64,000 bases of DNA from Methylococcus sp. EFPC2 (GTDB lineage: Bacteria > Pseudomonadota > Gammaproteobacteria > Methylococcales > Methylococcaceae): the NCBI RefSeq assembly GCF_016925495.1, contig NZ_CP070491.1, forward strand, positions 1,984,001 to 2,048,000, read 5' to 3'. The first letter of the stretch is position 1; every line of letters begins with the position of its first letter. Positions 49,692-64,000 of this stretch are shown here, in pieces. The notes under the pieces are model-generated. The model saw only the letters and a list, made by a program, of their open reading frames with translations. It did not search any database and had not been told where the DNA came from. The translations under genes and the position numbers were made by a program.

Positions 49692-50236
49692 TTACAGCCG
49701 CGCACCGAGCAGAAGAAAATCTCCCGCCTGTCCCGGTAGTCGGCTTCGCTGCGTGGAGCGGAACCGGGAAAACCACCTTGCTGGCCCTCCTGATTCCCTT
49801 GCTCAAGAGCCAGGGATGGCATGTGGGGCTGATCAAGAAAAGCCACCACGACTTCGAGATCGACCAGCCCGGCAAGGACAGCTACGTCTTGCGTAAGGCG
49901 GGGGCCTCGCCGGTAATGCTGACATCGTCCCACCGCCGGGCGATCATCACCGAGCACGACGATATCCGCGAGCGTAGCCTGAGCGAAGAACTCGATTTTT
50001 TCGACTCGACCGGCCTGGATCTGATACTGGTGGAAGGGTACAAACAGGAAAAATTTCCCAAGATCGAATTGCATCGCCCCGAATTGAGCAAACCCTTGCT
50101 GTTCTCAGACGACGACTCGATCATCGCCATCGCGAGCGATGCTGAACTGCCGGTCGCCCCCCCCATTCCGCAGCTCGACCTTAACCAGCCCGAGGCGATA
50201 GCCGCCTTCATCATTCAGACATTCCTCGCCCGATGA
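49688..50236 (+). CDS. mobB: Molybdopterin-guanine dinucleotide biosynthesis protein MobB
   Basis: 182-residue P-loop protein ([14 protein letters not shown] near 19-32) that supports attachment of GMP to molybdopterin. Motifs [14 protein letters not shown] and [18 protein letters not shown] are typical. The ATG overlaps the previous epimerase stop (ATGA), and its own stop overlaps moeA the same way. The pathway serves molybdoenzymes such as formate dehydrogenase; none is in the window. Confidence 0.93.
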
Positions 50237-51486
50237 CGCAAATTGCCGACCCCTGTGCCGAAGCGGGCGCCCGTCTGCTCACCCTCGACGCCGCCCTACA
50301 CCGCATAGTAGCGAGCCTCGAGCCGCTGCAGGACCGCGAAAGGGTGGTTCTGGGTCAGGCGCATGGCCGCATTCTGGCTCAGGAGATCGTGGCGAAACTC
50401 GACATTCCGGGCTTCGCCAACTCCGCCATGGACGGCTACGCATTCCACCATGCGGATGTGCAGCAGGCGCAAACGGCAGGCTTGGAATTGTCGGGCGCAT
50501 CGTTTGCCGGTCATCCCCATCCCGACGCGTGCAAACCGGGTACCTGCATCCGTATCTTCACCGGCGCGGCCTTGCCAGAAGGCGCCGATACCGTGGTGAT
50601 GCAGGAAAAGGTCGAAATCGTCGACGGCCGCATGGTCCTGCACGCCGAGGTCAAACCCGGCGAAAACGTGCGGCCCGCCGGCGACGAAGCCCGTGCCGGC
50701 GCCTCCTTGCTGAAGCGCGGAAAGCGGTTGAACGCAGCCGACTTGGGCCTGCTCGCCGCGAGCGGCATCGAGGACATCTTGGTCGCCCGCAAGCTGCGCG
50801 TCGCTTATTTCTCGACCGGAGACGAACTGCGTCCCGTGGGTCGCACGCTGAGCTACGGAGAGATACACGACAGCAACCGCTACACGCTCGCCGCTCTGCT
50901 GCAAAATCCCTATCTGGAAGCACTCGACCTGGGTGTGGTCCGCGACGATCCTGATGCAGTCAAACGCACATTGATCGAAGCCTCGGAACTGGCCGATGTC
51001 ATCGTCAGTACCGGCGGGGTCTCGGTCGGCGAAGCCGATTTCGTGAGCGGAGCACTGGCCGAACTGGGCCAAGTCGGCTTCTGGAAGCTCGCCATCAAAC
51101 CCGGCAAGCCGCTGGCCTTCGGACAAATCGGCAAAGCCTATTTCTTCGGATTGCCCGGCAACCCGATTGCGTCCATCGTCACGTTCTGGCAACTGGTCCG
51201 CCCCGCTCTGCTCTGTTTGGCCGGCACACAAACGCCCCGCCCGGTTAGGATCAGAGCCACTTGCGAATCCCATCTAAAAAAGGCGCCGGGCAGAATGGAA
51301 TTTCAGCGCGGCTATTTCCAATGCGACGACAAAGGTGACCTCACCGTCTCGATTTCGGGGCGCCAAGGTTCGCATCAACTGCTGAGCATCAGCGCGGCCA
51401 ACTGCTTGATCGTCCTCCCCGCCGAAAGTACTGGCGTAGAACCGGGCGCGGAGGTCCTCATCGAACCTTTGCAAGAGCCCTGGTAA
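50233..51486 (+). CDS. moeA: Molybdopterin molybdenumtransferase MoeA
   Basis: 417 residues; inserts molybdate into molybdopterin-AMP. Family motifs include PGFANSAMDGYAFHH, the GAALPEGADTVVMQE block, VSTGGVSVGEADFV and FFGLPGNPIASIVTF. Four-domain architecture of standard length. It overlaps mobB by 4 bases and forms a mobB-moeA pair. Confidence 0.95.
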   Translation: MTQIADPCAEAGARLLTLDAALHRIVASLEPLQDRERVVLGQAHGRILAQEIVAKLDIPGFANSAMDGYAFHHADVQQAQTAGLELSGASFAGHPHPDACKPGTCIRIFTGAALPEGADTVVMQEKVEIVDGRMVLHAEVKPGENVRPAGDEARAGASLLKRGKRLNAADLGLLAASGIEDILVARKLRVAYFSTGDELRPVGRTLSYGEIHDSNRYTLAALLQNPYLEALDLGVVRDDPDAVKRTLIEASELADVIVSTGGVSVGEADFVSGALAELGQVGFWKLAIKPGKPLAFGQIGKAYFFGLPGNPIASIVTFWQLVRPALLCLAGTQTPRPVRIRATCESHLKKAPGRMEFQRGYFQCDDKGDLTVSISGRQGSHQLLSISAANCLIVLPAESTGVEPGAEVLIEPLQEPW

Positions 51487-51537
51487 GTTTCAGGCTCTGC
51501 CGCACCATCCATTTTCCCAATCTTGAAGGAGCAAGCC

Positions 51538-52527
51538 ATGCCCCAACCCGGCATATTGGTCACCGGCGGCGCCGGCTACATCGGCAGTCATGTCGTCAAA
51601 CAGCTCGGCGAACAAGGTGAGCGCATCGTCGTTTTAGACAATCTATCCACGGGCTTCCGCGATTCGGTTTTGTATGGCGAATTCGTCGAAGGCGACACGG
51701 GCGATCTTGAACTCGTCGCCCGCATATTGAAGGAACACGGCATCGTATCGGTCCTGCACTTCGCCGCCCACACCATCGTGCCGGAATCGGTGGAAAATCC
51801 GCTCAAGTATTACGGCAACAACACCTGCAAAACCCGCAACCTGCTGCAATCTTGCCAGCAGGCGGGTGTGCAACACTTCATCTTTTCCTCCACCGCCGCG
51901 ACCTACGGGATTCCACAGGACACCCGCTGCCACGAAGACACACCCACCAGCCCGATCAATCCCTACGGCACGTCCAAACTGATGAGCGAGATGATGTTGC
52001 GGGACCTCTCGTCCGCTACGGATCTGCGCCACGTCATCCTGCGGTACTTCAACGTCGCCGGCTCCGACCCGGAAGGCAAGATCGGTCAGTCGACCAGGAA
52101 TGCCACCCTGCTGATCAAGGTCGCCGCCGAAGTCGCCGTGGGCAAGCGCGAAAAGCTGCTGGTGTTCGGCACCGACTACCCCACCCCGGACGGCACCGGC
52201 GTGCGCGACTACATCCATGTCAGCGACTTGGCGGATGCCCACATCCAGGCCTTGAACTATTTGCGGCAAGGAGGCGACTCGACCACCCTGAACTGCGGCT
52301 ACGGCCACGGCTACAGCGTGCGCGAAGTGATCGACACGGTGAACAAGGTCAACGGCAGCCCGATCAAGGTCGAAGAACAGCCGCGCCGTGCCGGTGACCC
52401 GCCCTCGCTCGTCGCCGCAGTCGACAAGATACACCGCACGCTGGATTGGAAGCCGAAATACGACGATCTGGAAATCATCGTGCGCACCTCCCTGGAATGG
52501 GAAAAAAAACTGGTGGCTAGAAAATAA
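51538..52527 (+). CDS. galE: UDP-glucose 4-epimerase
   Basis: 329-residue extended SDR converting UDP-glucose and UDP-galactose. GGAGYIGSHV (Rossmann motif), the LDNLSTGF segment, and NPYGTSK (catalytic YxxxK) are present; the C-terminus has RRAGDPPSLVA. The ATG at 51538 has AGGAG at 51527-51531; an ATG at 51523 would add five residues and lacks a site. It supplies UDP-galactose for surface polysaccharide. Confidence 0.94.
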   Translation: MPQPGILVTGGAGYIGSHVVKQLGEQGERIVVLDNLSTGFRDSVLYGEFVEGDTGDLELVARILKEHGIVSVLHFAAHTIVPESVENPLKYYGNNTCKTRNLLQSCQQAGVQHFIFSSTAATYGIPQDTRCHEDTPTSPINPYGTSKLMSEMMLRDLSSATDLRHVILRYFNVAGSDPEGKIGQSTRNATLLIKVAAEVAVGKREKLLVFGTDYPTPDGTGVRDYIHVSDLADAHIQALNYLRQGGDSTTLNCGYGHGYSVREVIDTVNKVNGSPIKVEEQPRRAGDPPSLVAAVDKIHRTLDWKPKYDDLEIIVRTSLEWEKKLVARK

Positions 52528-52903
52528 TCCAGTCTACCGGTGGCCCGTGCGCAAAAAAGCGACTGATCTCTCCTGAAGCGCAGCTCGGTTAACCCCCAAT
52601 CACTTACCCGTGGAAAATCGGTCAAAGCGTGGCCAGTTCCATGGCCTCGCGGGTCCTCTCAGGACTGCCGGTGGATCAGGTCGCCATGGTTGGCTGGCTG
52701 GCCGTCATACAGGGCGGGTTCCAACGCACCCAGCACGAAAACCTGTTCGGGCCGAAGGGGACACCTTCCAGCCAACGCTGCGCCGGATCGGGCAAGACCC
52801 GACCCGGACTCTACCCATCAGCGTCAATGGTCCTACGGGCCCAGCAATGGTGTGGATTGCCCAAATCCAACCCATATGACAAAATGCGTCTAGCACAGAC
52901 GAT
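52528..52903. other. 376-base region without a supported gene; tRNA-Thr promoter at its end
   Basis: Several short open frames are seen, but none has a family match or a good ribosome site. TTGCCC at 52857-52862 and CAAAAT at 52880-52885, 17 bases apart, are a candidate promoter for tRNA-Thr. I see nothing else here. Confidence 0.4.
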
Positions 52904-52979
52904 GCTGGCGTAGCTCAGGTGGTAGAGCAGCTGATTTGTAATCAGCCGGTCGCGAGTTCGAATCTTGTCGCCAGCTCCA
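52904..52979 (+). tRNA. tRNA-Thr (anticodon TGT)
   Basis: 76 nt with CCA. Acceptor GCTGGCG/CGCCAGC, anticodon stem CTGAT/ATCAG with TTTGTAA, and T arm GAGTTCGAATCTT are intact. The anticodon TGT reads ACA. The last 46 bases (from inside the anticodon loop to CCA) are repeated exactly at 62187-62232. The element integrated here rebuilt the tRNA 3' half, so the gene stays functional. Confidence 0.96.
52934..52979. repeat. attL: 46-bp tRNA-Thr 3' sequence
   Basis: Left boundary of the integrated element. It is identical over 46 bases to 62187-62232; the bases just outside differ (G before, T after here; A before, A after there). It starts in the anticodon stem and ends at the CCA, as for tyrosine integrases that use the 3' half of tRNA genes. 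Confidence 0.93.
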
Positions 52980-52987
52980 TATTTATC

Positions 52988-53018
52988 AAGGCCTTGCATC
53001 GTTGCAAGGCCTTTTCAT
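52988..53018 (+). terminator. Rho-independent terminator of tRNA-Thr carried by the element
   Basis: AAGGCCTTGCA and TGCAAGGCCTT form an 11-bp stem with a 4-base loop, then a T-rich stretch. It lies inside the element, directly after the tRNA. The host's original terminator now lies after attR (62241-62274). Confidence 0.85.
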
Positions 53019-53027
53019 TTTAGGGTT

Positions 53028-53046
53028 GTGCTACGCTGGTGCTACG
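53028..53046. promoter_or_regulatory. Left integrase arm-type repeats
   Basis: GTGCTAC occurs twice in tandem (53028-53034 and 53039-53045 with GGTGCTAC), and the 19-bp block is repeated with two mismatches at 62049-62067 near the right end. Placed inside both element ends, these resemble the arm-type binding sites of the integrase. A hairpin GTCTCCCG-TTAC-CGGGAGAC follows at 53047-53066. Confidence 0.55.
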
Positions 53047-53262
53047 GTCTCCCGTTACCGGGAGACAGGAACCCAGCACCACAGGACAGCTCAGCAAACC
53101 CGCCCAGCAGTGTGCCATGGCAAACGCGGCGCTTTCTTTCTCACCCTCTGCAGTGTATTCAGGCAAGACGCCGACTGCTTTGGTGCGGTCTCCGCGAGGC
53201 CTCTCATCAAAGGAGGCCGCTCTGCCTTATTCAAGTGATCGTGTTTGGTGGGACAAGCACCC

Positions 53263-53547
53263 TCAGGTTACCTTCTTGTCCACGTACTTGCGCACATCCG
53301 CCGCCCGCCACAATGGCGCCCGGCCTACCTTGATCGCCTTGGGGAATCCGCGCTCCTGGGCTTTGCGGTAGCGCACGGTCCAGGCGGACACGCCCAGGTA
53401 TGCCCCGACGCGGGCGGCGTCCCACATCTCGTCCTGGTCTTGGGCCTTGCTCAGGGCTTTGGCGACGGCCAGGTCGGCCACCTTCTGCATCAGCTCTTCC
53501 AGTTCTGCCATCGTGATCACCATGGCGGGTTCGTTTACCTTGATCAT
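53263..53547 (-). CDS. Helix-turn-helix protein, AlpA/excisionase-like
   Basis: 94 residues. The C-terminal half (WDAARVGAYLGVSAWTVRYRKAQERGFPKAIKVGRAPLWRAADVRKYV) is a MerR/AlpA-type winged helix (HTH_17). The N-terminal 35 residues are a short helix. The ATG at 53547 is preceded by a G-rich sequence. It lies near attL, the usual place for a recombination directionality factor, although AlpA proteins can also activate integrase transcription. The second such protein of the element. Confidence 0.75.
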   Translation of the reverse strand: MIKVNEPAMVITMAELEELMQKVADLAVAKALSKAQDQDEMWDAARVGAYLGVSAWTVRYRKAQERGFPKAIKVGRAPLWRAADVRKYVDKKVT

Positions 53548-53720
53548 GGGCGAACCCCCAAGCTCGACGTGCTCAAAGTCCCGCACTTGACGCCGCATTC
53601 AGGCACGCCACAAGGCAGTCAGGCTGACCACTGGCTGAGGTCTCCATGCCAATGATGTCGCCGGCCCTGAACCGTTGGGCATACCGGAACAGCTCACCGT
53701 GGAATTCGAATAGATATTGA

Positions 53721-53918
53721 ATGGTCAAAGAGACACCTCGAAATAGGTCGATAAAAGAAAAAGGTGCCGTCCGTGGCGTGGACTGCTATCCGGCAGGCGC
53801 GGGCGCAGTGGCAGTGGTGTCTCAGCCTGCCCCTGTGCTCGCCCGTCTAAATCCTGTCACCCAACAAGCGCGACAACCACTGCTAAATGGTCGCGCCTTT
53901 GTTGGTGCTCCTAAATAA
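53721..53918 (+). CDS. Small hypothetical protein (doubtful)
   Basis: 65 residues starting at ATG 53721, a basic N-terminus (KETPRNRSIKEKG) followed by an Ala/Val-rich part. No family is recognised and the ribosome site is poor. It is the only sizeable frame in 53548-54062 and the only one on the plus strand of the element. It may be non-coding. Confidence 0.25.
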   Translation: MVKETPRNRSIKEKGAVRGVDCYPAGAGAVAVVSQPAPVLARLNPVTQQARQPLLNGRAFVGAPK

Positions 53919-54062
53919 CCCCTTTCCGTGCTGTGAAAGAGCTATATAAACTATAGACCAAGTATAAGGTAAAACATTGCCATGCCTAATAACATTTACT
54001 TATGCTATTTAACAGCCCCGGTCATACTTTATTATGTGTAAAAATAGACTTTTTCTTAATAC
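53919..54062. other. AT-rich gap
   Basis: About 140 bases with low GC, rich in TATA-like runs, between the small frame and the J-domain gene stop. No hairpin with a T-run and no gene are seen. The composition differs clearly from the chromosome around it. Confidence 0.4.
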
Positions 54063-55433
54063 CTAGCAAAGACAATTTTTTACGATTTCAAAATTTTTGA
54101 TAGTTACCTCGGCAGAGACGCCTTGACACCCTGAGGGCGGTTGCGCATTGCTATCCGCTATTTGAAGTCTTGTTTTTAGTTTCAGAAATTCCTCGTTTGT
54201 TATTAACCCGGACTCCAATAAATCTACCAGCTTTTCGAGCCTTTCCGTAGAGCAACTATTGGGAAGAAGGGTCGTTGCGCTAATTGTTCTATTATTGCTC
54301 TCTTCTTGCTTGGCAGACCGTTTTAGCATGATTTCGATAATGGCTTGCCATCGAGCCGCACTCTGAATTGCCGCCTGGTAGCTTGCATCAGTCCTTTTTT
54401 CAACCGGCTTTTCGCTCTTAAAGAAAACAATCTCATGAAATGGCTTTTGAACGTTATTTATTGTTAGCCTAAGCACTAGGCGGCTAGTTCTGTCTGACGT
54501 TTGAGTTGCGCCGGAAAGTCCACCAATGACAGCGCCAACACCTCCAAGCAGAAGACTGCCCGCGAGCGCCCCTCCTAGCTGCGAAGCTCTATCCGTTTTT
54601 GTGGTGGTGACACCGTCTTCCATAAGCTCGGAAGATAGTACGTCATCGGCCTGTATTACCTCTAATGTAATGTCATCGCCGTCTAAGATTATGAGGCAAA
54701 CTGTTTTTCGAACCTCATCAAAAGCCAGTCCGGTTTTGCTTATAATGGAAAAGTAATAATCGGTTAAAGAGAAGTCAGCAAGATTTTTTAAGTTTTGCTC
54801 AATAACATGTACGAGATGCTGGGCTTTTTGAGCTCTCTTATTCCAACGCGAAACCCCTATAGCGCAATATAAACCTAGAAATAGGCCAACACCTGCCATT
54901 ATTAAATGCCTATCGGCCTCCGATGCTGAAGATTCAAAAAGCCAAAACCAAGCAGCAATTGCCCCAACTCCAATTAAAGCCCCTGTCACAAAAATGAAGA
55001 ATAACAGTAAGACGTTTGAATCAACGACGTTGCTATCTGCTAGCGTTTCTCGGCTATAAGGGGCTGGAGCAGAAGCTGAAACACCTACAGGAAGGCTATT
55101 CGTTTCACCCGGTTCGATAGAGCCTGTACTGTCGATTTGAGGGGCACTTGACAGTGCAACTACTTTTTTGCCCTCATTAGGTTCAATTGCTAGGCCCGTG
55201 CCCTCTTGTCTATTCCGTATGCGATTAGCTAAACCAGTGTCATACCGCCCCCGTTTTTCCGGGGAAGACAAGACACGGTAAGCGTCCTGAATGACGGTTT
55301 TTAGGAGTGGAGCATCCGGATCACCAGCCTCATGCCGGTGATCGACTTCCTTGAGCCTCTTAACGTAAGCGGCTTTAATGTCGTCAGCAGTGGCCGTCTG
55401 CTTGACTCCAAGAAAGGTATAGAGGGTCTTCAT
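54063..55433 (-). CDS. Membrane protein with degenerate J-domain and SHOCT-like C-terminus
   Basis: 456 residues, AT-richer than its neighbours. Residues 1-70 look like a DnaJ domain (YTFLGVKQTATADDIKAAYVKRL...DAYRVLSSPEKRGRYD), but the HPD motif that stimulates Hsp70 is replaced (VDHRHEAGD). Two membrane helices lie at about 144-169 and 178-196. A glycine-rich segment (GGALAGSLLLGGVGAVIGG) follows, then a SHOCT-like end (LEKLVDLLESGLITNEEFLKLKTRL). The function is unknown; loss of HPD argues against a normal co-chaperone. Confidence 0.8.
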   Translation of the reverse strand: MKTLYTFLGVKQTATADDIKAAYVKRLKEVDHRHEAGDPDAPLLKTVIQDAYRVLSSPEKRGRYDTGLANRIRNRQEGTGLAIEPNEGKKVVALSSAPQIDSTGSIEPGETNSLPVGVSASAPAPYSRETLADSNVVDSNVLLLFFIFVTGALIGVGAIAAWFWLFESSASEADRHLIMAGVGLFLGLYCAIGVSRWNKRAQKAQHLVHVIEQNLKNLADFSLTDYYFSIISKTGLAFDEVRKTVCLIILDGDDITLEVIQADDVLSSELMEDGVTTTKTDRASQLGGALAGSLLLGGVGAVIGGLSGATQTSDRTSRLVLRLTINNVQKPFHEIVFFKSEKPVEKRTDASYQAAIQSAARWQAIIEIMLKRSAKQEESNNRTISATTLLPNSCSTERLEKLVDLLESGLITNEEFLKLKTRLQIADSNAQPPSGCQGVSAEVTIKNFEIVKNCLC

Positions 55434-55484
55434 AGGGCAATTTATCTCCGCGCTGCGCGATGAGTACTCGATGGACTGTGATGA

Positions 55485-55509
55485 TGAAAAACCCGCACTT
55501 GGCGGGTTT
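55485..55509 (-). terminator. Rho-independent terminator after the DUF4124 gene
   Basis: AAACCCGC and GCGGGTTT form an 8-bp stem, followed on the minus strand by a T-run. It separates the DUF4124 gene from the J-domain gene, which therefore needs its own promoter. Confidence 0.75.
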
Positions 55510-55529
55510 CTATGGGGCGTTCGATCAGG

Positions 55530-56036
55530 CTAGTAGTTCCTTGCCCGCGTCCGGTTGATGATGACCTGCGGGCTGGCCTGGGCGCCACTCTTGGAGTAAA
55601 TCAACTCCTGCTGCCGTTGTAATGCCTGTATTTGCTGCTGTCGGCTGCCTGGGTCACCGATGCCTGAACTGGACAGCCGCTCGATGTCGCGCTCGATCTG
55701 CTTCAACTGCTGTTTGTCGCTGTAGCTAAGACCAGGCTGCTGCACGGGTTGAGGTGCATATTGCGGCACTGGTTGCGGCGCGTAGTTAGACCCTTCAATA
55801 TCCCCACCGATGCGCCGGCGTGTCTCTTGCTCCATTTCGCGCTGCACGGCCAAGTCACGCATCTGACGGCGGTAATCCATCTCTTCGTCATAGGTAATCG
55901 TTTTTTCAACCTCGGCGCCAGCCGGGGGCGGGGTCTGCGTGTAATGCAGGGTGCCGCTCTTATCTGTCCACTTGTACATCTCGCCTGCCAGAGCCTGCCC
56001 GGAAAAGGCAAGCAACAGAATCAATCCACGTTTCAT
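55530..56036 (-). CDS. DUF4124 domain-containing periplasmic protein
   Basis: 168 residues. A signal peptide (1-17, ending ALA) precedes a DUF4124 domain (EMYKWTDKSGTLHYTQTPPPAGA), a short domain of unknown function common in gammaproteobacterial envelope proteins. The rest is Gln-rich and helical (RRQMRDLAVQREMEQETRR; KQQLKQIERDIERLSSS). The ATG at 56036 has a strong AGGAGG. A chromosome-type gene carried inside the element. Role unknown. Confidence 0.82.
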   Translation of the reverse strand: MKRGLILLLAFSGQALAGEMYKWTDKSGTLHYTQTPPPAGAEVEKTITYDEEMDYRRQMRDLAVQREMEQETRRRIGGDIEGSNYAPQPVPQYAPQPVQQPGLSYSDKQQLKQIERDIERLSSSGIGDPGSRQQQIQALQRQQELIYSKSGAQASPQVIINRTRARNY

Positions 56037-56240
56037 GACTTTCCTCCTAATAGGTGATCGGGATTTTTCCCATGCGGAAAATAACAAATCGGCGGGTTGC
56101 TGGGTAGTTTTTACCTTGTCGATGGAAATGCCTATAGCGATGTTCGTCGGTACACTTTTCGCCCGCCGTTGACAACTCGGCACGGACGCTCCAGGCAATA
56201 CGCCGGCCGCCACCTAGGCGCGCCTCACCCCACGCCAAGG

Positions 56241-56293
56241 CCCTCGCTGTGGGCGAGAGGCTCAGCGCTGTTAGCGCAGCCCTGAGCCTTTTT
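56241..56293 (+). terminator. Two-hairpin structure with T-run, plus strand
   Basis: A CTCGC/GCGAG hairpin is followed by a GGCTCAG/CTGAGCC stem enclosing CGCT-GTT-AGCG, then five Ts. It lies in the 356-base stretch 56037-56392, which holds no gene that I can support. It points along the plus strand while all genes nearby are on the minus strand, so it may end an unseen small RNA or antisense transcript. Confidence 0.5.
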
Positions 56294-56392
56294 GCATTTA
56301 CGGTTTGCGGTACCTGCCTCAAGCATTACCGCGCACGCCTTTGAGCGATAAAAACCTCGCTATGTGCGCCGGGGTAATACCTCTTTCGATAG

Positions 56393-56728
56393 TTAAACAA
56401 CAACGCCCCACCAGCGCAGCAGATTATGGGTGCTCTGACTGATATGGGATTTAATGTAGGTTTTAGGCAGCGGGCCAAGCTCCCACGCTTCGAGGAAGGC
56501 ATACTTACATGCCGTTCTCAATTCGTCCGGGCTCTGAGCCCGAAGCCCCGCTTTCACGTGATGAACCACGTCTACATATTTGTCAGGGTCTGGCGCGCGC
56601 CTCAGTATTAGCGGGACGTCTTCCAAGTAATCCCGCGCGTTTCGGCGGTCGCCTTCGTCTGCTGCGGTAAAAACGGTGTTCAGCGAGAGAAGAACAGTGA
56701 TGTGAACATCTTTTGATGTGTATATCAT
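56393..56728 (-). CDS. Hypothetical protein
   Basis: 111 residues, mostly helical, with no recognised domain, signal peptide or membrane segment. Segments such as LNTVFTAADEGDRRNARDYLEDVPLILRR and AGLRAQSPDELRTACKYAFLEAW look like a small soluble helical fold. AGGAAG precedes the ATG at 56728. Composition is intermediate. Within the mobile element. Confidence 0.65.
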   Translation of the reverse strand: MIYTSKDVHITVLLSLNTVFTAADEGDRRNARDYLEDVPLILRRAPDPDKYVDVVHHVKAGLRAQSPDELRTACKYAFLEAWELGPLPKTYIKSHISQSTHNLLRWWGVVV

Positions 56729-56817
56729 AGTTAATACTTCCTGTATTAAGGTGGGGTTACCACGTTTCCTAAGTGTGTTGGTGCCTCGCCATTGGCGTGG
56801 GCATTGGGTAGCCGGCC

Positions 56818-57237
56818 CTATTCCTCGGCGGCCCCTCCTGCATTAGACGTTGGCTCCAGGCACTCAGCATCGTGCTGTTCAACCATGGCCAGCAGCGGGA
56901 TACCGACTCGCAGAATCTCGCGCGCAGCCGCTATTCGCACCTCCGCCCGCGATGACATCAAGGACTCATCTAAGACCCGTAGCGCCTCGACAGTCATCGC
57001 AGGCAACCTACGCATCAGCTCGTACCTCGCGCGCTCCAAAACGGCTTGCAACTCGTCCTGAAACTCTCGACGGTTGACCAATGTTGACGCGTGCCATCTG
57101 CTAGTGCCGGTGGCCCTTGCAGCACTGGCAATTGTCCTCCCCTCAGCAATCATGTGCAGTAGGCGCTCTTGGCGAACTGATAGTGCGGGTTTTCGAGGGT
57201 TCGGCGTTTCTTCAAAGGTTTGAGAGTGTCTTTCCAT
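56818..57237 (-). CDS. Helix-turn-helix protein of the mobile element
   Basis: 139 residues or slightly fewer. An N-terminal helix-turn-helix (LSVRQERLLHMIAEGRTIASAARATGTSRWHASTLVN) is followed by a helical region with HEAT-like repeats (ERARYELMRRLPAMTVEALRVL; RAEVRIAAAREILRVG). The layout recalls small phage DNA-binding proteins such as terminase small subunits, but no packaging gene is nearby, so this is tentative. The ATG at 57237 is preceded by GGAGC and, 30 bases further, by an 8-bp palindrome that may be its operator. Confidence 0.65.
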   Translation of the reverse strand: MERHSQTFEETPNPRKPALSVRQERLLHMIAEGRTIASAARATGTSRWHASTLVNRREFQDELQAVLERARYELMRRLPAMTVEALRVLDESLMSSRAEVRIAAAREILRVGIPLLAMVEQHDAECLEPTSNAGGAAEE

Positions 57238-57266
57238 GTGATGTACGCTCCATAGTTGAGAATTAA

Positions 57267-57290
57267 CGAAGGGGCCGGGTGTCCCCTTCG
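57267..57290. promoter_or_regulatory. Palindrome upstream of the HTH gene
   Basis: CGAAGGGG and CCCCTTCG, perfect 8-bp arms with an 8-base spacer, 30 bases before the HTH gene start. A candidate operator or leader hairpin. Confidence 0.5.
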
Positions 57291-57301
57291 AATTGAAATC
57301 G

Positions 57302-57487
57302 GGTATTGCCGTGCACGGCAAACGGCAATACCTATATATGGTCTGCCGTTTGCCGAGCATATATCTGATATAGGTTTTTGGTACGGCAAACGGTTTGCCG
57401 CGTTGCCGCGCACGAATCTATATGTAGTATAGGGTTTTGCACGGCAAGCCGTTTTGCCGTGCTTGCCGTGCATGCCGTTTTGCCGAG
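57302..57487. repeat. Iteron-like cluster of CGGCAA/TTGCCG repeats (candidate origin)
   Basis: About eleven copies of the hexamer CGGCAA or its complement TTGCCG lie within 186 bases, interleaved with AT-rich blocks such as CTATATATGG and GATATAGG. Perfect inverted repeats include GGTATTGCCGT/ACGGCAATACC at 57302-57332 and CGGCAAAC-G-GTTTGCCG at 57384-57400. The cluster starts just past the stop of the primase-helicase gene. Iterons and AT-rich segments next to a replication gene fit a replication origin or a regulatory region; neither is proven. Confidence 0.7.
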
Positions 57488-57496
57488 CACCCACCA

Positions 57497-59686
57497 TCAG
57501 GGTTTCACCAATAGCATGTCGTGGGGCCGATGTGCGGCGGCAGACCTTCGAAACAACCCAGTCAGCCCGCCAGCCGCCTTTAACCCCAGCTTACCGCTTT
57601 GGATGCCCAGCGTTATCAGCTCGCGTAAGGATTTCTGCCCCATGCCCAGCGTGCCGGCACGGCCTGCATGCGCTTTTTCGAAAGCCGCCCGGGTAAGCAG
57701 GGCATCTTGCGCCATCGTCCAGCCGACAAGATCAACCACAGCATTGAGCGCCGTCATGTTGTTAGCGGCAGGTTGCAGGCTCACACCGCGAAGGTAACCG
57801 CCTGGCACGCGCTCGAGCCAAATAGCGTCACGGGGCGGTAAGTGGTTGCATTTTACCGAGGCCAATTGTAGGTATTTCGAAGGGTCGTCCCCTCTTGGAC
57901 ACAAGCCGGCATTGATGTCTGCGTCATCCATCCTACTCAACTGCAGAACGTGCCGCATGGCGTCGACTATGGCACTAGCCCCGCGTGCGCTGGCCTGATT
58001 CCGTGAGTTGTTCGTCGTCGCCCCCTTGGACACATGGTGTGCCGTCACGACGCAAACCCCGGTTTCCTTGCGGATGCGTTCCAACAGGGAAACTAAGAAT
58101 GTCATATGGGTTTGGTTGTTCTCCTCGCCCATGTGCAGCCTTGCGAGTGGTTCGATAACGAGTAGGTCCGCCTCGGACTCTTGGACCAACTCAATAACCT
58201 CCTGTAAAAACTGCCCCTCCCGTGGCTCCCCTCGCTGCACGGTCATGATGTGAGCTTGCCGACCCGATAACGGAAATAGACGCAAGTTTTGAGTAAGGTG
58301 GGCTTCCATCTCGCTTTCGCGGCGTAACCGCTCCGGTTCCGGCAAGTCTGCAAACGATTTTTGCATTTCCCTAACAACTTGCCGAAGACGACGGTGTGTG
58401 TCCCCTATGTGGTCTTCCAAAAAGATACCTAGGGAGTTCAAACACTGTGCGCCCATTGGCACAACATCAAACCAAGGTAACCCGGTGGCGGCCGACGAGA
58501 GTAATTGGAGAAGCACTTGAGACTTACCAGCACCTCCAGGAGCGATAACGCCGGTAATGTCGTCGACTCGAAGGACATCCGGCACGATGAACCTCTGCGG
58601 TGCCGGCACCTCTTTGAGCATCCATTGCACCTCCCCAACCTTGAGCGACAAGCCCTGCGCTCTCTCAGGGAGCACATGGCACGCAGTGGCCAATACCTGA
58701 CGTACTTTAACCAGCCCATCGGCCTTGAAAATGTCCGCAATATCGAGCTTGGGGTTGTCCGGGTGTCCTGCCGGCCCTTCTACGGTAAAGTCGGCGAGGC
58801 GTACTTGAGGTATCCGCTGGGCTTGCTCAGTGGCCTTGGGCATGTAGTCCCGATCGACCACCCAAATGATAGGACGGGTAGGGTCTTGCCTGAGAAGAGT
58901 GCGCGTTGCGGACTCGAAGTTCGACGTACTGCCCACTGCCATGGCCTGCGCCGTCAGCAGGACGCCATCTGGGCCTGATTCATGCGGGTGTTGATGCTTA
59001 GGCAAGGCAGCGCTGGCAGCAAGTTTATTCCCCGCACTTTCGACTAGGTAAGTAGGCAAGCTGTACAGGTCCCCCTGATACCGCTCCTTGGTGGAGCTCC
59101 ACCCAGCCCCCTTGACGTTCGAACCCGGTACAAACTTCTTTCCTTCGGCGCTGCCAGGCGGCGGCACCTTTTGGATTGCTGAGATGCAACCATCGGCAAA
59201 CCGACGGTACGGTAGCCAAGTGCACCCCTCGTCGTCCACTTTGAATTCATCGTGAGGTGTTGTCAGTAGGCATTTGTCCTCGAAATACGGCGAAGGGTGC
59301 CCGCTGGGCAGAGCCTCGTACTCTTTAATCTGCTTGCGAAACTCCGGACTCGGCTGAAACTCGGACCCCTCCCACTCGTCGTCCTCGGCAATGCCGGGAT
59401 AGGTTATGCCTTCGCGCTGTGCGTAACTATAAAGAGTTCCCAGGGTTACCCCGCCGGGCTTCTCCTTGAAGCTCTCATAGCGCTGCCGGACTGCGCGCTC
59501 GTCGAATTTATCCGGGCACCGCTGTGAAAATGCGACGACCAATGCCGCACCATCGTACCCGTGCTCATGTTCTCCGCTGTGTATAGCCATTAGCACCGAC
59601 AGCCAAAGGCTGTAGTCCGTGGCGTATTCGATGGGCAGGTGTTCTAGGATGTGGGCGATTTGATCGCCTTTGGTTGTGTTACTCAT
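57497..59686 (-). CDS. Primase-helicase-like replication protein (RepA/AAA_25 type)
   Basis: 729 residues. The N-terminus (about 15-90; LWLSVLMAIHSG...FDERAVRQRYESFK) is a PriCT_2-like primase domain. The middle (about 200-330) has a degenerate toprim-like region (GVLLTAQAMAVG; IIWVVDRDYMPKA). The C-terminus is a RecA-like hexameric helicase: Walker A GVIAPGGAGKSQ, Walker B DLLVIEPLARLHMGEENN, and VCVVTAHHVSKG. Such fused proteins initiate replication of P4-type satellites and some plasmids. AAGGAA precedes the ATG. Confidence 0.85.
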   Translation of the reverse strand: MSNTTKGDQIAHILEHLPIEYATDYSLWLSVLMAIHSGEHEHGYDGAALVVAFSQRCPDKFDERAVRQRYESFKEKPGGVTLGTLYSYAQREGITYPGIAEDDEWEGSEFQPSPEFRKQIKEYEALPSGHPSPYFEDKCLLTTPHDEFKVDDEGCTWLPYRRFADGCISAIQKVPPPGSAEGKKFVPGSNVKGAGWSSTKERYQGDLYSLPTYLVESAGNKLAASAALPKHQHPHESGPDGVLLTAQAMAVGSTSNFESATRTLLRQDPTRPIIWVVDRDYMPKATEQAQRIPQVRLADFTVEGPAGHPDNPKLDIADIFKADGLVKVRQVLATACHVLPERAQGLSLKVGEVQWMLKEVPAPQRFIVPDVLRVDDITGVIAPGGAGKSQVLLQLLSSAATGLPWFDVVPMGAQCLNSLGIFLEDHIGDTHRRLRQVVREMQKSFADLPEPERLRRESEMEAHLTQNLRLFPLSGRQAHIMTVQRGEPREGQFLQEVIELVQESEADLLVIEPLARLHMGEENNQTHMTFLVSLLERIRKETGVCVVTAHHVSKGATTNNSRNQASARGASAIVDAMRHVLQLSRMDDADINAGLCPRGDDPSKYLQLASVKCNHLPPRDAIWLERVPGGYLRGVSLQPAANNMTALNAVVDLVGWTMAQDALLTRAAFEKAHAGRAGTLGMGQKSLRELITLGIQSGKLGLKAAGGLTGLFRRSAAAHRPHDMLLVKP

Positions 59687-59770
59687 GCCGGTTTTTCCTT
59701 ATCCGGTTGAGCATGTCCGCGATGTGATAGTATTACGTCACCCGCGGTCCATGCGGGGTTGCTGATATTT

Positions 59771-59793
59771 GCCGGCCTCGTGCCGGCATTTTT
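59771..59793 (+). terminator. GCCGGC hairpin with T-run between alpA-like and helicase genes
   Basis: GCCGGC-CTCGT-GCCGGC followed by ATTTTT on the plus strand. The genes on both sides are on the minus strand, so it may instead act as an attenuator or protein-binding site. A second hairpin, CCCGC/GCGGG, lies at about 59743-59759. Confidence 0.4.
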
Positions 59794-59803
59794 ATGGTGT
59801 GGC

Positions 59804-60031
59804 CTAAGCGGCCTGTTGGGTACGGGCGGCTAGAAACGCTTCCAGGTCGCTTTTCCGGTACCGAACCATGCGTCCTACCTTGATGAACGGCAGGGGATAC
59901 CGCTTGGTGGATCGCCAAACGGCCAGCGTATCCACGGCGATGCCGCCGAGATATTCACCAGCTTGCTGGGGCGTTAAGAGGATGTTGCCGAGAGGTTCGG
60001 CGGGGTTGAGTGCGGGGGTTGCGTGTGACAT
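59804..60031 (-). CDS. AlpA-like helix-turn-helix transcriptional regulator
   Basis: 75 residues of the HTH_17/AlpA type (LTPQQAGEYLGGIAVDTLAVWRSTKRYPLPFIKVGRMVRYRKSDLEAFL). GGAGG is a good ribosome site before the ATG at 60031. In P4-like elements AlpA regulates integrase and excision. It precedes the primase-helicase gene on the same strand, so it may also control replication. Confidence 0.85.
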   Translation of the reverse strand: MSHATPALNPAEPLGNILLTPQQAGEYLGGIAVDTLAVWRSTKRYPLPFIKVGRMVRYRKSDLEAFLAARTQQAA

Positions 60032-60164
60032 GGCTTAGGCCTCCGTTGCCTTCGAGTGATCCGAGGTCAAACATTAACATCCGCTGTTAAGCTTCGTCAA
60101 CTTCGCGCAAACACCCAGTCAGGCTAGCTCTCGGCCAACTATTTCTGCTAAGGCTTCGTCGCGC

Positions 60165-60467
60165 CTACGCCGCCAGTGGTGCCCGTTGAACGTTCGGCGC
60201 TCCGGCTTGCCGCGCCTTCCACAAGTCGTAGGCGGCTTGCTGGGCTATCCATAGATCGGCCCGGCCGCCGTTCTCCGGCCCTAGCCAGCCTTCCAGGCGC
60301 AGCGCCATTTCGGGCGAGATCGCCGCGTGACCGTTCAGCACTCTCGACAATGCCGCGCGCGTCACGTTGAGCTGTGCGGCGGCTTGCGTCACGTTCAAGC
60401 CCAAAGCGGGTAGAACATCTTCCCGTAGCGTTTCGCCAGGGTGCGGCGGGTTGTGCATTCGTGCCAT
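60165..60467 (-). CDS. higA: HigA-family antitoxin
   Basis: 100 residues of the HigA/XRE type ([56 protein letters not shown]). It neutralises HigB and represses its own operon. It follows higB by 14 bases in the usual toxin-first order. ATG 60467 was chosen over a TTG at 60473. Its tail [18 protein letters not shown] is unstructured. Confidence 0.9.
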
Positions 60468-60481
60468 GGTCAATACCTCTC

Positions 60482-60760
60482 TCAGTGGTAATCCTGGTAA
60501 TCGACGAGGATCGCGTCTTCACCTTCGAACGTAAACGTTACACGCCAGTTGCCATTCACCGAAATAGTGTAATGTCCGGCAAGATCGCCGGACAGCGTGT
60601 GTAACCCCCAGCCCGGTACGTTCATATCGGCTGAGCATGTGGCCGTATCAAGTCGTGCCAGTTGTCGCCCCAGCTTGGCGGCGTGGTGGGGCTGTATGCC
60701 GGCTTTGCTGCCTGTCTCGAAAAAGGCCTGAAGTCCTTTATGCCGGAAGGTCTTTATCAT
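60482..60760 (-). CDS. higB: HigB-family toxin (RelE/ParE superfamily)
   Basis: 92 residues of the HigB type: ribosome-dependent mRNA endonuclease in known members. Typical motifs are [60 protein letters not shown]. Upstream partner of higA. It may stabilise the mobile element. Confidence 0.9.
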
Positions 60761-60809
60761 GCTTCAAGTGTATAGCGTAGCGTTGCAGTTATCAACCATT
60801 GTAAACGGT

Positions 60810-62024
60810 TCATCCTTTCCGCTTCTTTAACGGTACAACCTCGGCGGATTCTTTCAGCCCGCCAGCGGCCAGTATCGCACTGGTCGCACGCTCTACCGAC
60901 TCCCTGACTGGATCCAAGTCCAGTTGTGCATAAACCGCCGTGGTGCTGGGCGACTTGTGATTCAGGCTCTTGCCTACGATGACCAGCGACGCGCCGGTCT
61001 TGGCCTGCCAACTGCCCAAGGTGCGGCGAAGATCATGAATGCGTAGATTGTCGATGCCTGCCCGCTCCAACACACGCGCCCATGCCTTCTTAGGCTCGAT
61101 GAGATGCCCAGTCGCGCCCGTGCCGGGGAACACCCACGGCGAATCGCAGCCTTGCCGGCCCTTGAGAATTTCCACTGCTTCCGGGGTGAGGGTCACGGTC
61201 TGCGGTTCGCCGTTTTTCGTGGTCGGTATGCGCCACTCGGCACGCTTCAGATGGATATGCTTCCACTGCATTTCTTGGACGTTAGATCGCCGCGCGCCGG
61301 TCAACAATGCCAACAAGAAGAAGTCCCGCAGGGAGGTGTTCGGCTCATCGGCCAGTGCTTTGAAGAAGGCCGGCAACTCATCGGACAGCAAGAAGCGGTT
61401 GCGCGGGTTCTCGGGAAACTTATTAATGCCGTGCGCCGGGTTGGCTCCCTTGAATAGCTTCCGCTCCGCCGCGTAGCCGAACAGGCTGGACGCCAGAGCG
61501 ATGACACGGTTCGCCGTGGTGGGGTGTTCCTTGCCTATTTCCGCGTGCAGTTTGCCAAAGTCCGTGTCTTTGAGCTGCGACAGCTTACGCTTTCCCCACT
61601 TGCCCAAGTACAGGCCGAAGTCATAGCGATACGATCGCTTGGTCTTCTCCGAAAGGAACGCGCCCCGTTTGTTGCGGCGATGCTGCAAGAATTCGTCGAA
61701 CAGTTCTTGCAGGGTGGTTTCGGTCTTGAGCGCACGGGCGTCACTGTTCGGGTTGATTCCCTGGACGATCAGCGCATTCAGTCGAGCCACCTCCTTACGG
61801 GCCTGCTCGATGGTCATGTCGGGGAACTTGCCCAAGGTGACGCGCTCAGGCTTGCCGCTTATTCTGCGCTGGATAAAAAAAGTCTTGCTGGTACTGGTGA
61901 CGCGAAGTTGAAGCCCGCCCGCGTTCTTGTGGGTGTCGTGATAGATGATGCGTTCACCAGCGCCGGCAGGTGGCAAGGCATCCAATTGCGGCTTAGTGAA
62001 GCTGAATCGAGTGGGGTCGTTCAT
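60810..62024 (-). CDS. int: Tyrosine site-specific integrase (DUF4102/P4-type)
   Basis: 404 residues. An N-terminal arm-binding DUF4102 domain (about 1-95; KNAGGLQLRVTSTSKTFFIQRRISGKPERVTLGKFPDMTIEQARKE), a SAM-like core-binding domain, and the catalytic domain with Arg in GARRSNVQEM, His-x-x-Arg in HDLRRTLG, His in LNHKSPSTT and the nucleophile Tyr in AVYAQ. Its gene starts 163 bases from attR. GGAGC precedes the ATG. Catalyses integration into tRNA-Thr. Confidence 0.95.
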   Translation of the reverse strand: MNDPTRFSFTKPQLDALPPAGAGERIIYHDTHKNAGGLQLRVTSTSKTFFIQRRISGKPERVTLGKFPDMTIEQARKEVARLNALIVQGINPNSDARALKTETTLQELFDEFLQHRRNKRGAFLSEKTKRSYRYDFGLYLGKWGKRKLSQLKDTDFGKLHAEIGKEHPTTANRVIALASSLFGYAAERKLFKGANPAHGINKFPENPRNRFLLSDELPAFFKALADEPNTSLRDFFLLALLTGARRSNVQEMQWKHIHLKRAEWRIPTTKNGEPQTVTLTPEAVEILKGRQGCDSPWVFPGTGATGHLIEPKKAWARVLERAGIDNLRIHDLRRTLGSWQAKTGASLVIVGKSLNHKSPSTTAVYAQLDLDPVRESVERATSAILAAGGLKESAEVVPLKKRKG

Positions 62025-62048
62025 GGCCTGCTCCGGCGTTGCGGGGTC

Positions 62049-62067
62049 GTGCTACATTGGTGCTACG
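62049..62067. promoter_or_regulatory. Right integrase arm-type repeats
   Basis: Matches the left arm block (53028-53046) at 17 of 19 positions, with GTGCTAC twice. A further inverted copy, GTAGCAC, lies at about 62095-62101. It lies between int and attR, where arm sites and the int promoter are expected. Confidence 0.55.
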
Positions 62068-62186
62068 CTTTCCGTGAAATTAAGGCTAAATTCGTGTAGC
62101 ACCGTTAAGCTCAGAGTAGGCTAAACGTATTGATTTGTAAAGTATCGTTAAGGTTAATAAATCAGCAGAAAATAGCGGGCCGTCAA

Positions 62187-62232
62187 ATTTGTAATCAGCC
62201 GGTCGCGAGTTCGAATCTTGTCGCCAGCTCCA
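62187..62232. repeat. attR: 46-bp duplicate of the tRNA-Thr 3' end
   Basis: Exact copy of 52934-52979. It is the 3' part of the original tRNA gene, left as a fragment after integration; the 5' half is absent, so this copy is not a working tRNA. It marks the right edge of the element. Confidence 0.93.
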
Positions 62233-62240
62233 ATAAATTC

Positions 62241-62274
62241 AAGCCCTTACGAGCAATCGAAAGGGCTTTTTTAT
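62241..62274 (+). terminator. Original host terminator of tRNA-Thr
   Basis: AAGCCCTT and AAGGGCTT, 8-bp stem with a 12-base loop, then a T-run. It lies 8 bases after the attR CCA, the position expected for the original terminator of the interrupted tRNA gene. Confidence 0.75.
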
Positions 62275-62322
62275 TGGTCTCCATAGATTTCTCCATAGAA
62301 ATCAGGCGTTTTTTTGCTCATC

Positions 62323-62500
62323 TCACTCTTCTGTAGAGGGGCGAACTATAGGCAGGGATAGGTCGTAAATGTCGAGCATGGCCTCCTTTTTGTGTCCGCT
62401 GGCGTGTTGCTTGTAGGCCCGGGTTCCTGGCTTGTCGGCGATGCCCTTCCTTTTCAGGTCGTGCAATGCAAAGCGGTCTGCTTCAGCTTTCCCGCCGTCT
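62323..62500 (-). pseudogene. C-terminal remnant of a second phage-type integrase
   Basis: In minus frame the sequence reads ADRFALHDLKRKGIADK..TRAYKQHASGHKKEAMLDIYDLSLPIVRP, ending with a stop at 62323-62325. The HDLKRKGIAD, ASGHK and DIYD.SLP pieces are the end of tyrosine integrases. The N-terminal and central domains, with the first Arg, are missing upstream. It lies just outside attR, so it belongs to an older insertion, not the present element. Confidence 0.7.
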
Positions 62501-62813
62501 GCTTATTCACCGTGCTGCAGCAGCGCGCTCGTCACCTCTTGGCGCGGATGGACGGTCGCGACTAAAGCGACGTGTGCGATAGGACGGCACTCAGTGGCCG
62601 GCCGTCGAGCGCTTTTGCGTTCCGGTCAGCAGGAAACCGTGGTCACTTTGGCGGCCTCTGACACCGCCCGCCGTCGGGCCGAGGCTGTCGGCCCAAGTCC
62701 CGCATCACCCCAAAACCCGGGCGTCAGTACAAGTAGCGCGGCTTAACTTAACCGTATTGAGTGGGTTAGGGGCAAGAAAAAACTTGGGGTTACCATATGC
62801 TGGCCTCCCCTCA
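62501..62813. other. Degraded sequence after the integrase remnant
   Basis: No supported gene. Short open frames on both strands lack family resemblance and ribosome sites. It may be the eroded body of the older mobile element. I see no repeats or hairpins worth noting. Confidence 0.35.
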
Positions 62814-63308
62814 CTATTCGTCCAGCGCGCGGAACCAGTCGGTCAACTCGCGCGTGTCGCCCAGATCGCAGAGACGGCGGTCGATGGCGTCCTGGTTACC
62901 CCATACCACCTCGCCCCAAGCGCCGCCGGCCACGCGCGATTCGATGTCCTTGCAATAAAGTCCCTGGTCACGCTGGACGTAGAATCCGTACGTGCGGCAC
63001 GCCACCGGGCGGTGAGCGTAGACCCGGCAGGCCCCTGCCGACCGGTCCAACAGCGGACAGACAATAGGGCGTGAGGATTGCTCGGCTAGTGCGGCGATCT
63101 CCTGGTCGATTTCACGAAGTTGTGCCGGGGGCAGCGCAGCCAGTCCCTCCCGCAGCAATTCCCATTCCGCCAGAGTGAGCCGCGGCACTTCGGCGAGCCG
63201 TCGGCAACAGCCGTCGCAGCCCAGGCGACATAGCCAATCAAGATGTTCGCCCCGGATGGCCCGTACGCGCGCTTCAATATCGGCTTGGATTTGGGAGAGT
63301 GTGTTCAT
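62814..63308 (-). CDS. YkgJ family cysteine cluster protein
   Basis: 164 residues. The cysteine pattern CRLGCDGCCRR...CPLLDRSAGACRVYAHRPVACRTYG...C matches the Fe/Zn-binding YkgJ (CxxxCxxCC) family of unknown function. The ATG at 63308 starts MNTLSQIQ; the frame extends 30 bases more. No neighbour suggests a pathway. Confidence 0.85.
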   Translation of the reverse strand: MNTLSQIQADIEARVRAIRGEHLDWLCRLGCDGCCRRLAEVPRLTLAEWELLREGLAALPPAQLREIDQEIAALAEQSSRPIVCPLLDRSAGACRVYAHRPVACRTYGFYVQRDQGLYCKDIESRVAGGAWGEVVWGNQDAIDRRLCDLGDTRELTDWFRALDE

Positions 63309-63547
63309 CGTGCTATCCGGTCTCGCTATTTTAACCACGCTTTGAAAAACCTATTGAGGGAGCCCCTCGTTGTGGTGCCACCAGGAACGACTCCGGAACC
63401 CTGCTCGAACTCAATGTGCTATCCGGACGAGCCACCGGAGGTTGGTGTTGCGCAGCCGCCGGACCCGGCGTTCGGTTACGGAGGCCGAGCCTTGTTCCTC
63501 TGCGATCAAGCTTAGGTGCTCTCTTAGCCGTGATGAATCCCTGCCGT

Positions 63548-64000
63548 TTATCCGGACTCGATGACATCGAATTGCAGTCCGCTCGAGCCCTCGCCACGGC
63601 CCGGCTGCTTGCGCCGCCCGACCCACAAATGGCTTGAGCCGTTGCTCCACCGGACATATTGATAGGACCGGGTGACCCGCGAGCCCTCGCGAGGGACTTC
63701 CTCGTCATGCAGCAGCAGCTCATTGCCGGGGGTCAAGATCCGGCCTTGCGGTTCCTGCAAACCGTGCATGCCCTCGGTATCCACGTGCGGGAGTGCCGCA
63801 CGCTTCAAGCGCATGGAGGTTCCCTTCCGCACCGGCAACAGCGGGACCCAATAGTCCGGCACGGTAGTGCCGAGCCGGTAGCGTAACGGCGCCCCGGACT
63901 TGCGTTCCACCGGGATCGCCTGATCCTGCCGGCTCAAGGCCTGCTGGTAGGCCTCGTAGCGATCCAGGGGGCGTCCTGCCGGACCCTGCACCACGCGTTC
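63548..64000 (-). CDS. Hypothetical protein, 5' end beyond the window
   Basis: Open from the right edge to a stop at 63548, about 150 residues of what is probably the C-terminal part. Segments such as DQAIPVERKSGAPLRYRLGTTVPDYWVPLLPVR and EEVPREGSRVTRSYQYVRWSNGSSHLWVGRRKQPGRGEGSSGLQFDV look like a beta-rich structural protein. I do not recognise the family. A GTG at 63994 is a possible start, but the frame continues upstream. Confidence 0.6.
   Translation of the reverse strand, partial: ERVVQGPAGRPLDRYEAYQQALSRQDQAIPVERKSGAPLRYRLGTTVPDYWVPLLPVRKGTSMRLKRAALPHVDTEGMHGLQEPQGRILTPGNELLLHDEEVPREGSRVTRSYQYVRWSNGSSHLWVGRRKQPGRGEGSSGLQFDVIESG

Follow-up and report, generated by a model that had tools for sequence, protein, structure and literature searches.

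A probable PICI-like phage satellite at a tRNA-Thr gene of Methylococcus sp. EFPC2

Overall organization of the element

The analysed stretch of DNA, called the window here, comprises 64,000 nucleotides of Methylococcus sp. EFPC2 (contig NZ_CP070491.1, positions 1,984,001 to 2,048,000), and all coordinates below are window positions unless a locus is named. Near its right end, the window contains two identical copies of a 46-bp sequence, with a start-to-start distance of 9253 bp. The left copy completes an intact tRNA-Thr(TGT) gene (Rfam score 66.2 bits), which is the sole match of an Rfam scan of 50000-64000, and the right copy is the 3′ part of the same tRNA. The original prediction had described exactly this pair of repeats. 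The enclosed unit has a GC content of 0.551, compared with 0.598 in the window to its left and 0.613 to its right. Its coding share is 78%, and all ten called genes lie on the minus strand. Judged by its anatomy, this unit is probably (about 0.65) a phage satellite resembling the phage-inducible chromosomal islands (PICIs), representing a new lineage of a known kind; we infer its mobility, its helper and its packaging. The features carrying this interpretation are as follows; HTH denotes helix-turn-helix and TerS the small terminase subunit.

52904-52979, plus strand: tRNA-Thr(TGT), rebuilt at the left attachment site (attL) from a host 5′ part and an element-borne 3′ part (ARAGORN, Rfam)
52934-52979, plus strand: attL core, 46 bp (exact repeat)
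53028-53045, plus strand: putative integrase arm sites on the attL side, GTGCTAC twice, 11 bp apart (heptamer search)
56818-57237, minus strand: small-terminase-like protein with HTH and helical hairpin (predicted fold nearest phBC6A51 and SF6 TerS; weak TerS matches in PHROGs)
57303-57490, no strand assigned: probable replication origin, 11 CGGCAA/TTGCCG hexamers in groups (repeat search)
57497-59686, minus strand: fused primase-replication protein (pri-rep), PriCT_2 plus RepA-type AAA_25 helicase, 729 residues (PF08707 2.2e-15, PF13481 4.3e-27)
59804-60031, minus strand: AlpA/excisionase-like HTH_17 protein (PF12728 36 bits, cut-off 27; phrog_66 9.7e-6)
60810-62024, minus strand: tyrosine integrase, 404 residues (Phage_integrase 1.8e-23, Arm-DNA-bind_3 1.5e-15, phrog_1 5.5e-66)
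62049-62102, plus strand: putative integrase arm sites on the attR side, GTGCTAC twice plus one inverted copy (heptamer search)
62187-62232, plus strand: right attachment site (attR) core, 46 bp, tRNA 3′ fragment (exact repeat)

In the direction of transcription, the order is integrase, HigBA toxin-antitoxin pair, AlpA-like protein, pri-rep, iteron origin, TerS-like protein and cargo. The AlpA or MerR regulator by which Gram-negative PICIs are recognized is represented here by the AlpA-like 59804-60031 protein, which exceeds the HTH_17 cut-off and matches phrog_66.

Attachment site and arm sites

The heptamer GTGCTAC forms direct pairs with 11-bp spacing at 53028/53039 and 62049/62060, accompanied by an inverted copy at 62096. 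These five of the seven copies in the window are the putative arm sites just inside both ends. The same five sites, with distances to the core equal to within 1 bp, are present in two elements with closely related integrases (L070 and L071; L and G numbers denote compared loci and genomes), and L038 has seven copies, five in a similar layout. The motif is not family-wide, being absent from L034, L074 and L075, present as one stray copy each in L072 and L076, and as four scattered copies in L036.

A search of 61 genomes with the joined flanks of the element (E ≤ 1e-5) gave matches in 56, the host's own included, and the best matches cover the tRNA part of the query. Six matched loci were aligned to the tRNA plus right flank. 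Four of them (G029, G045, G033 contig 202 and G059) contain a clean tRNA-Thr(TGT) site, as anticipated for relatives without the insertion, and their match crosses the junction into a flank resembling the host side of attR; beyond the tRNA this match is short and terminator-like. In G008 and G039, the alignment goes no further than the end of the tRNA or 19 bases beyond. The 46-bp core, the putative arm sites and the clean sites in relatives together constitute a specific attachment site, as is required of a PICI. A further PICI criterion is an attachment site never used by a prophage in the species, and the prophage Bath-R2 of Methylococcus capsulatus adjoins tRNA-Thr (PMC12924245).

To the right of attR, a 59-residue scrap (62323-62502, minus strand) aligns with the terminal portion of phrog_14425 (6.5e-18), a family of unknown function, and by eye resembles a tyrosine-recombinase C-terminus, with no match in a Pfam scan. 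It may be a relic of an insertion that occurred earlier in the same tRNA-Thr gene.

Replication module

The pri-rep protein joins a PriCT_2 domain to a helicase half whose RecA-like hexameric domain resembles that of RSF1010-type RepA. RSF1010-type RepA (1g8y) is its only relative in the PDB at E ≤ 0.01 (1.5e-16, residues 507-638), and RepA proteins of small plasmids match this half at ~28% identity. Unlike in RSF1010-type RepA, the domain is here fused behind PriCT_2, in an integrative element without mobilisation genes.

The iteron stretch comes to within ~10 nt of the pri-rep stop codon. Its hexamers span 57306-57485 in groups split by AT-rich stretches (spacers judged by eye). One 7-mer occurs seven times per 300 bp at 57300, the densest spot in the 64 kb, compared with at most four in 40 Markov shuffles of the element. 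The iteron cluster, already noted in the original prediction, is therefore above chance. The origin of PICIs directly follows the 3′ end of rep and has its iterons arranged around AT-rich DNA (PMC6092414), and the same succession of pri-rep and probable iteron origin is seen at 57303-57490. Among 23 other stretches screened, seven have their densest cluster (at least six copies) at the 3′ end of a primase or helicase gene or shortly beyond it: L070, L071, the second element of L037, L045, L068, L111 and L117 (gene identity by eye in the last two). Dense repeats lie elsewhere in L039 and L057, and the other 14 stretches have clusters of at most five. In L057, a CRISPR-like array outscored the iteron array; the CRISPR-like one (L057:9700-11500), judged from repeated peptides in the list of open reading frames (ORFs), lies beside a tRNA-Arg element of G014.

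The small-terminase-like protein

By sequence alone, the 56818-57237 product gives weak matches, to a resolvase HTH (0.0098) and to the terminase small subunit family phrog_4044 (0.0055; 0.07 when trimmed). Relatives are found in G029, G014 (two copies), G032 and G004, amounting to five of the 61 genomes at E ≤ 1e-3 with the host's own included. At E ≤ 1e-8 the only one of 369 genomes of the class with a match is the host's own, and none was confirmed in viral contigs. The protein was aligned with its relatives at L056, L057 and L059; the other G014 copy and the weakly matching G004 sequence were not included, and the model also excludes an L037 protein in the analogous position (16% identity). 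All three aligned relatives adjoin replication genes (L059 by eye), and in L057 the iteron array sits between the primase and the relative, as in the window. Terminase small subunits make up seven of the 21 PHROG families matched by the four aligned members (best 4.1e-6), the remaining families being a mixture of DNA-binding, transposase, regulator and unnamed ones.

Known TerS proteins combine an HTH DNA-binding domain with a helical domain for oligomerisation. The AlphaFold model is all-helical, with an HTH followed by a helical hairpin (predicted local distance difference test, pLDDT, 79.4; predicted template modelling score, pTM, 0.53). Upon re-alignment, the top PDB entry is phBC6A51 (Z 7.5; root mean square deviation, rmsd, 1.9 over 60 residues), followed by two SF6 TerS DNA-binding domains (Z 6.7, rmsd 1.5 over 52 residues, and Z 6.4). 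The TerS proteins of PaP3, NV1 and E217 reach Z 5.4 over 95-102 residues with rmsd 7-9. A single viral model, unnamed, matches at E ≤ 0.001; of the 50 viral models listed, 14 bear the name terminase small subunit. We regard TerS as a likely identity of the protein. A fusion of the adjacent orphan 56393-56728 with the TerS-like protein, an idea taken by eye from L056, was dropped, as no significant similarity was found.

The original prediction had recognized no structural, packaging or conjugation genes. With respect to structure and conjugation this holds: profile scans find no structural, lytic or conjugation families among the ten proteins, neither capsid, portal nor large terminase subunit (TerL) in Pfam and PHROGs, and no relaxase, type IV secretion or transfer families. 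With respect to packaging, the TerS-like gene had been overlooked.

Relatives of the integrase

The seven closest integrases (L070-L076) are 77-82% identical to that of the window. A tRNA-Thr fragment lies upstream of the integrase in all seven loci, and an AlpA-like gene is present in six. The four nearest integrases in closed elements (L070, L071, L074 and L076) belong to int-AlpA-primase units of 6.3-9.0 kb, whose ORF lists, inspected by eye with few ORFs profile-scanned, contain no structural module. The element of Methylomonas sp. LW13 (L070), also at tRNA-Thr, and L071 share with the window the layout of the arm sites and a cluster of iterons following the primase. In contrast, the primase-helicase is of DUF3987 type in L070, L071 and L074 (the three tested), tblastn finds no relative of 56818-57237 in L070-L076, and the cargo differs. 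A DUF5681 protein is present in L074.

Among the best 80 of 108 integrase loci, an AlpA-like relative is detected by tblastn in 51. In 90 of 94 integrase rows, some of which are same-genome duplicates, the 3′ portion of a tRNA, starting at the anticodon loop, lies upstream of the integrase. The targets of the 94 rows are Thr (48), Arg (16), Lys (9), Met (7), Phe (4), Asn (3), singletons (3) and unresolved (4); L039, one of these last four, is tRNA-Thr by separate analysis. The integrase tree joins the window's integrase with those of Methylomonas LW13 and of an uncultured proteobacterium, each sited at tRNA-Thr (support 100/99). These three belong to a 15-row group with targets Thr (10), Arg (3), Ser (1) and unresolved (1). 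The Thr target requires 10 changes on the tree, compared with 31.5 when shuffled; it is thus clustered, though not in one clade.

Fourteen loci picked for a matching intact tRNA at the far side define closed elements of 3.5-9.0 kb, of which the three below 4.2 kb may be degenerate. L034 measures 12.2 kb, and its integrase, 75% identical, has an in-frame stop. Integrases 70-74% identical also occur in Alphaproteobacteria bins (L077-L082, two named Finniella and Odyssella), a surprising host range; their sites are tRNA-Arg (3), tRNA-Ser (1), tRNA-Thr (1) and unresolved (1).

Packaging genes in the wider family

The host genome harbors a second element of ~19 kb (L068/L069, ~G000:C1:4255044-4274336), located between a tRNA-Arg fragment and tRNA-Arg(CCG). 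Its integrase is 38-44% identical to that of the window. This element possesses AlpA, a primase with a repeat cluster behind it, a tape-measure-like protein, a TerS (phrog_57 1.7e-20) and a TerL of GpA type (phrog_15 3.4e-199), and a search with three families found no portal or HK97 capsid. An 8.7-kb element of Nitrosomonas at tRNA-Lys (L095:8582-17343) and the viral contig L014 carry an HK97 capsid and TerS, and an 8.6-kb element of Thiobacillus at tRNA-Arg (L145:6495-15126) carries an HK97 capsid; these are the only recognized head genes in the three. The occurrence of TerS with TerL, of capsid with TerS or of capsid in the wider family suggests satellite lifestyles within it.

A 6.8-kb tRNA-Thr(CGT) unit with integrase, primase and TerS (phrog_51), covering L055:2414-5300 and L037:1-4050, stands in tandem with a 13.1-kb element of the window's integrase family. 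The TerS of L037 (2967-3353) was not counted to the 13.1-kb element, as it sits in this neighbouring unit.

Assignment as a PICI-like satellite

Several observations lead us to the PICI-like reading. The gene order and single direction of transcription fit the description of Gram-negative PICIs (EcCICFT073 type; PMC6092414), which have int, AlpA, pri and rep (sometimes fused), an iteron origin immediately 3′, one transcription direction, occasional terS, accessory cargo and no structural genes. Two further elements, one of them from Methylomonas LW13, keep the arm-site geometry. The nearest integrases of closed elements sit in same-site int-AlpA-primase elements of 6-9 kb. Finally, the fold predicted for the 56818-57237 product is TerS-like, and the aligned relatives of this protein adjoin replication genes. 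Compared with the described PICIs, the element differs in the PriCT_2 plus RSF1010-RepA-type composition of its pri-rep, in a TerS-like protein nearest phBC6A51, and in its site, the tRNA-Thr of a methanotroph.

As a PICI-like satellite, the element would be activated by a helper phage that switches on AlpA. Int and AlpA would then excise it, replication by the PriCT_2/RepA helicase would start at the iterons, and the terminase and capsids of the helper would be directed by the TerS-like protein to package the element, while the HigBA, J-domain and DUF4124 genes may serve stability or host benefit.

A number of results weigh against this assignment. No TerS was found among six ORFs scanned with PHROGs from L070, L071, L074 and L076. 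For the window's own protein, phrog_4044 is the only TerS family matched, the model with pLDDT 79.4 and pTM 0.53 rests on four sequences, and no PDB entry matches it at E ≤ 0.001. A Z of 7.5 over 60 residues can, according to the comparison tool, reflect a common arrangement, and other HTH proteins, mostly of LuxR/NarL type, follow from Z 5.8 down. Relatives of pri-rep are partial and at most 40% identical in nine of the 61 relatives' genomes (own included), and all below 60% in seven phage and 800 plasmid records; none appears in the genome-contig scan or in viral contigs, nor, at E ≤ 1e-20, in the 369 class genomes besides the host's own. Phage tail genes, identified by eye, lie on contigs with integrases at 55% (L011) and 51% (L012/L104) identity. 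The expectation that the integrase would not group with phages carrying full structural modules thus holds for the four closest closed relatives and fails at 51-55%. In addition, the families PF03354 (TerL), PF04860 and PF05136 (portals) and PF05065 (HK97 capsid), each positive in three or four of 14 control genomes, were not found in the host genome, so that within these four families no resident helper is found.

The same evidence bears on other explanations. An improbable, though not negligible, one is a hitchhiker resembling the phage-inducible chromosomal minimalist islands (PICMIs), excised and replicated upon phage infection without its own packaging gene and packaged via concatemers or a helper-like cos or pac site. 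In that case, the 56818-57237 product would be an HTH protein with a role in replication or regulation, exerted through the neighbouring iterons. These lie directly upstream of its gene both in the window and in L057, as would suit a protein that binds iterons or regulates its own expression, and no TerS is recognized among the ORFs scanned from the closest kin. PICMIs share the small size, the int-AlpA-primase core and the lack of capsid-remodelling genes, and PICMI115 requires int, iolg, alpA and prim for excision and replication (PMC10803314). However, the described PICMIs belong to Vibrionaceae and sit beside fis, whereas the present element has a tRNA-Thr site, iterons, HigBA and a TerS-like gene (same source for PICMIs). 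The fold comparison, placing phage small-terminase entries above other HTH proteins, and the terminase names among the viral models also speak against it.

We consider it quite unlikely that the unit is a mobilizable integrative element with an IncQ-like replicon of helicase and iterons, moved by the conjugation of another element via an unrecognized origin of transfer. The RepA-like helicase half would agree with this, but the ten proteins include no relaxase or transfer family, the replication region has no DNA-level match in 72,556 plasmids, and elements carrying phage packaging genes are built on the same int-AlpA-primase chassis. Still less probable is a prophage remnant that lost its structural genes. 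The tail-gene contigs (L011, L012), the capsid- or terminase-bearing elements of the wider family and the phage-gene scrap just outside attR could be taken in its favor; perfect att repeats, ten open genes, 78% coding share and same-site relatives of similar size and order instead indicate a complete unit.

P4-like satellites have Psu, Delta and Sid genes along with a tRNA-targeting integrase, an AlpA-like regulator and a primase-helicase with iterons. The element shares the latter three, and the satellite-like gene content proposed originally is supported; its P4-like affiliation is not, since no Psu, Delta or Sid family is among the matches of the ten proteins in Pfam and PHROGs. Capsid-forming PICIs bring their own capsid and packaging module, in contrast to the absence of capsid, portal and TerL here.

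A tentative extension of the PICI-like reading, which we hold as possible and no firmer, is that a tRNA-Thr-centred integrase family drives one satellite lineage in methanotrophs, ammonia oxidisers, pseudomonads and others, swapping packaging inserts behind the origin. The int-AlpA-primase-iteron chassis would be constant and the inserts variable: a lone TerS-like gene here, TerS plus TerL in L068, HK97 capsid plus TerS in Nitrosomonas. If true, these elements would form a naturally occurring gradation of satellites that differ in how independent their packaging has become.

Most known phage satellites come from Enterobacterales, Vibrio and Gram-positive cocci. Among the papers listed in literature searches on satellites or islands and methanotrophs, none describes a satellite of methanotrophs, and neither these papers nor those listed for satellites with capsid and terminase genes include a report of the tRNA-Thr lineage (subscription papers lie outside this coverage). 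Sister elements of the unit occur in many other bacteria. A tRNA-Thr lineage with predictable anatomy would offer a marker by which phage parasites could be searched for in environmental Proteobacteria, and its sisters with differing packaging genes would offer a test of how satellites gain packaging functions. Methylococcus is grown industrially, where phage infection is a stated risk (PMC12924245).

Cargo and other features

The remaining features of the element are as follows.

52988-53013, plus strand: terminator-like hairpin, element-borne, behind the rebuilt tRNA (11-pair stem)
53263-53547, minus strand: second HTH_17/AlpA-like protein, adjoining attL (phrog_66 2.3e-7; Pfam 16.9 bits, cut-off 27)
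54063-55433, minus strand: low-GC cargo protein with J-domain, hydrophobic segments (by eye) and SHOCT-like part (DnaJ 8.7e-11)
55530-56036, minus strand: DUF4124 cargo protein with signal-like N-terminus (by eye) (PF13511 6.8e-12)
56393-56728, minus strand: orphan ORF of 111 residues, without family in profile scans and without relative among the ORFs of the loci compared
60165-60473, minus strand: HigA-like antitoxin (TIGR02607 1.1e-27)
60482-60760, minus strand: HigB-like toxin (PF05015 1.4e-20)

Profile families agree with the earlier naming of the integrase, primase-helicase, HigBA, J-domain and DUF4124 genes. Of the two AlpA-like proteins proposed, 59804-60031 is confirmed above the Pfam cut-off, whereas 53263-53547 is weak in Pfam and better in PHROGs. 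A hairpin behind attR corresponding to 52988-53013 is seen by eye only, with none in the hairpin scan there. PADLOC gives three weak matches (best 0.0033), none of which is read as a defence system.

The 54063-55433 protein scores 25.2 bits for SHOCT, just under the cut-off of 27, and matches phrog_27819 (1.8e-26); the protein finds no match in 50,697 phage records. A new type of element had been suggested because of such odd genes. Since they are accessory types seen in related elements, no new type is indicated: the L126 element also has a DUF4124 protein (above cut-off), and L038 has a J-domain protein below cut-off. SHOCT proteins adjoin the tRNA in L070 and L071, and a HigBA pair lies between integrase and AlpA in L144 as well.

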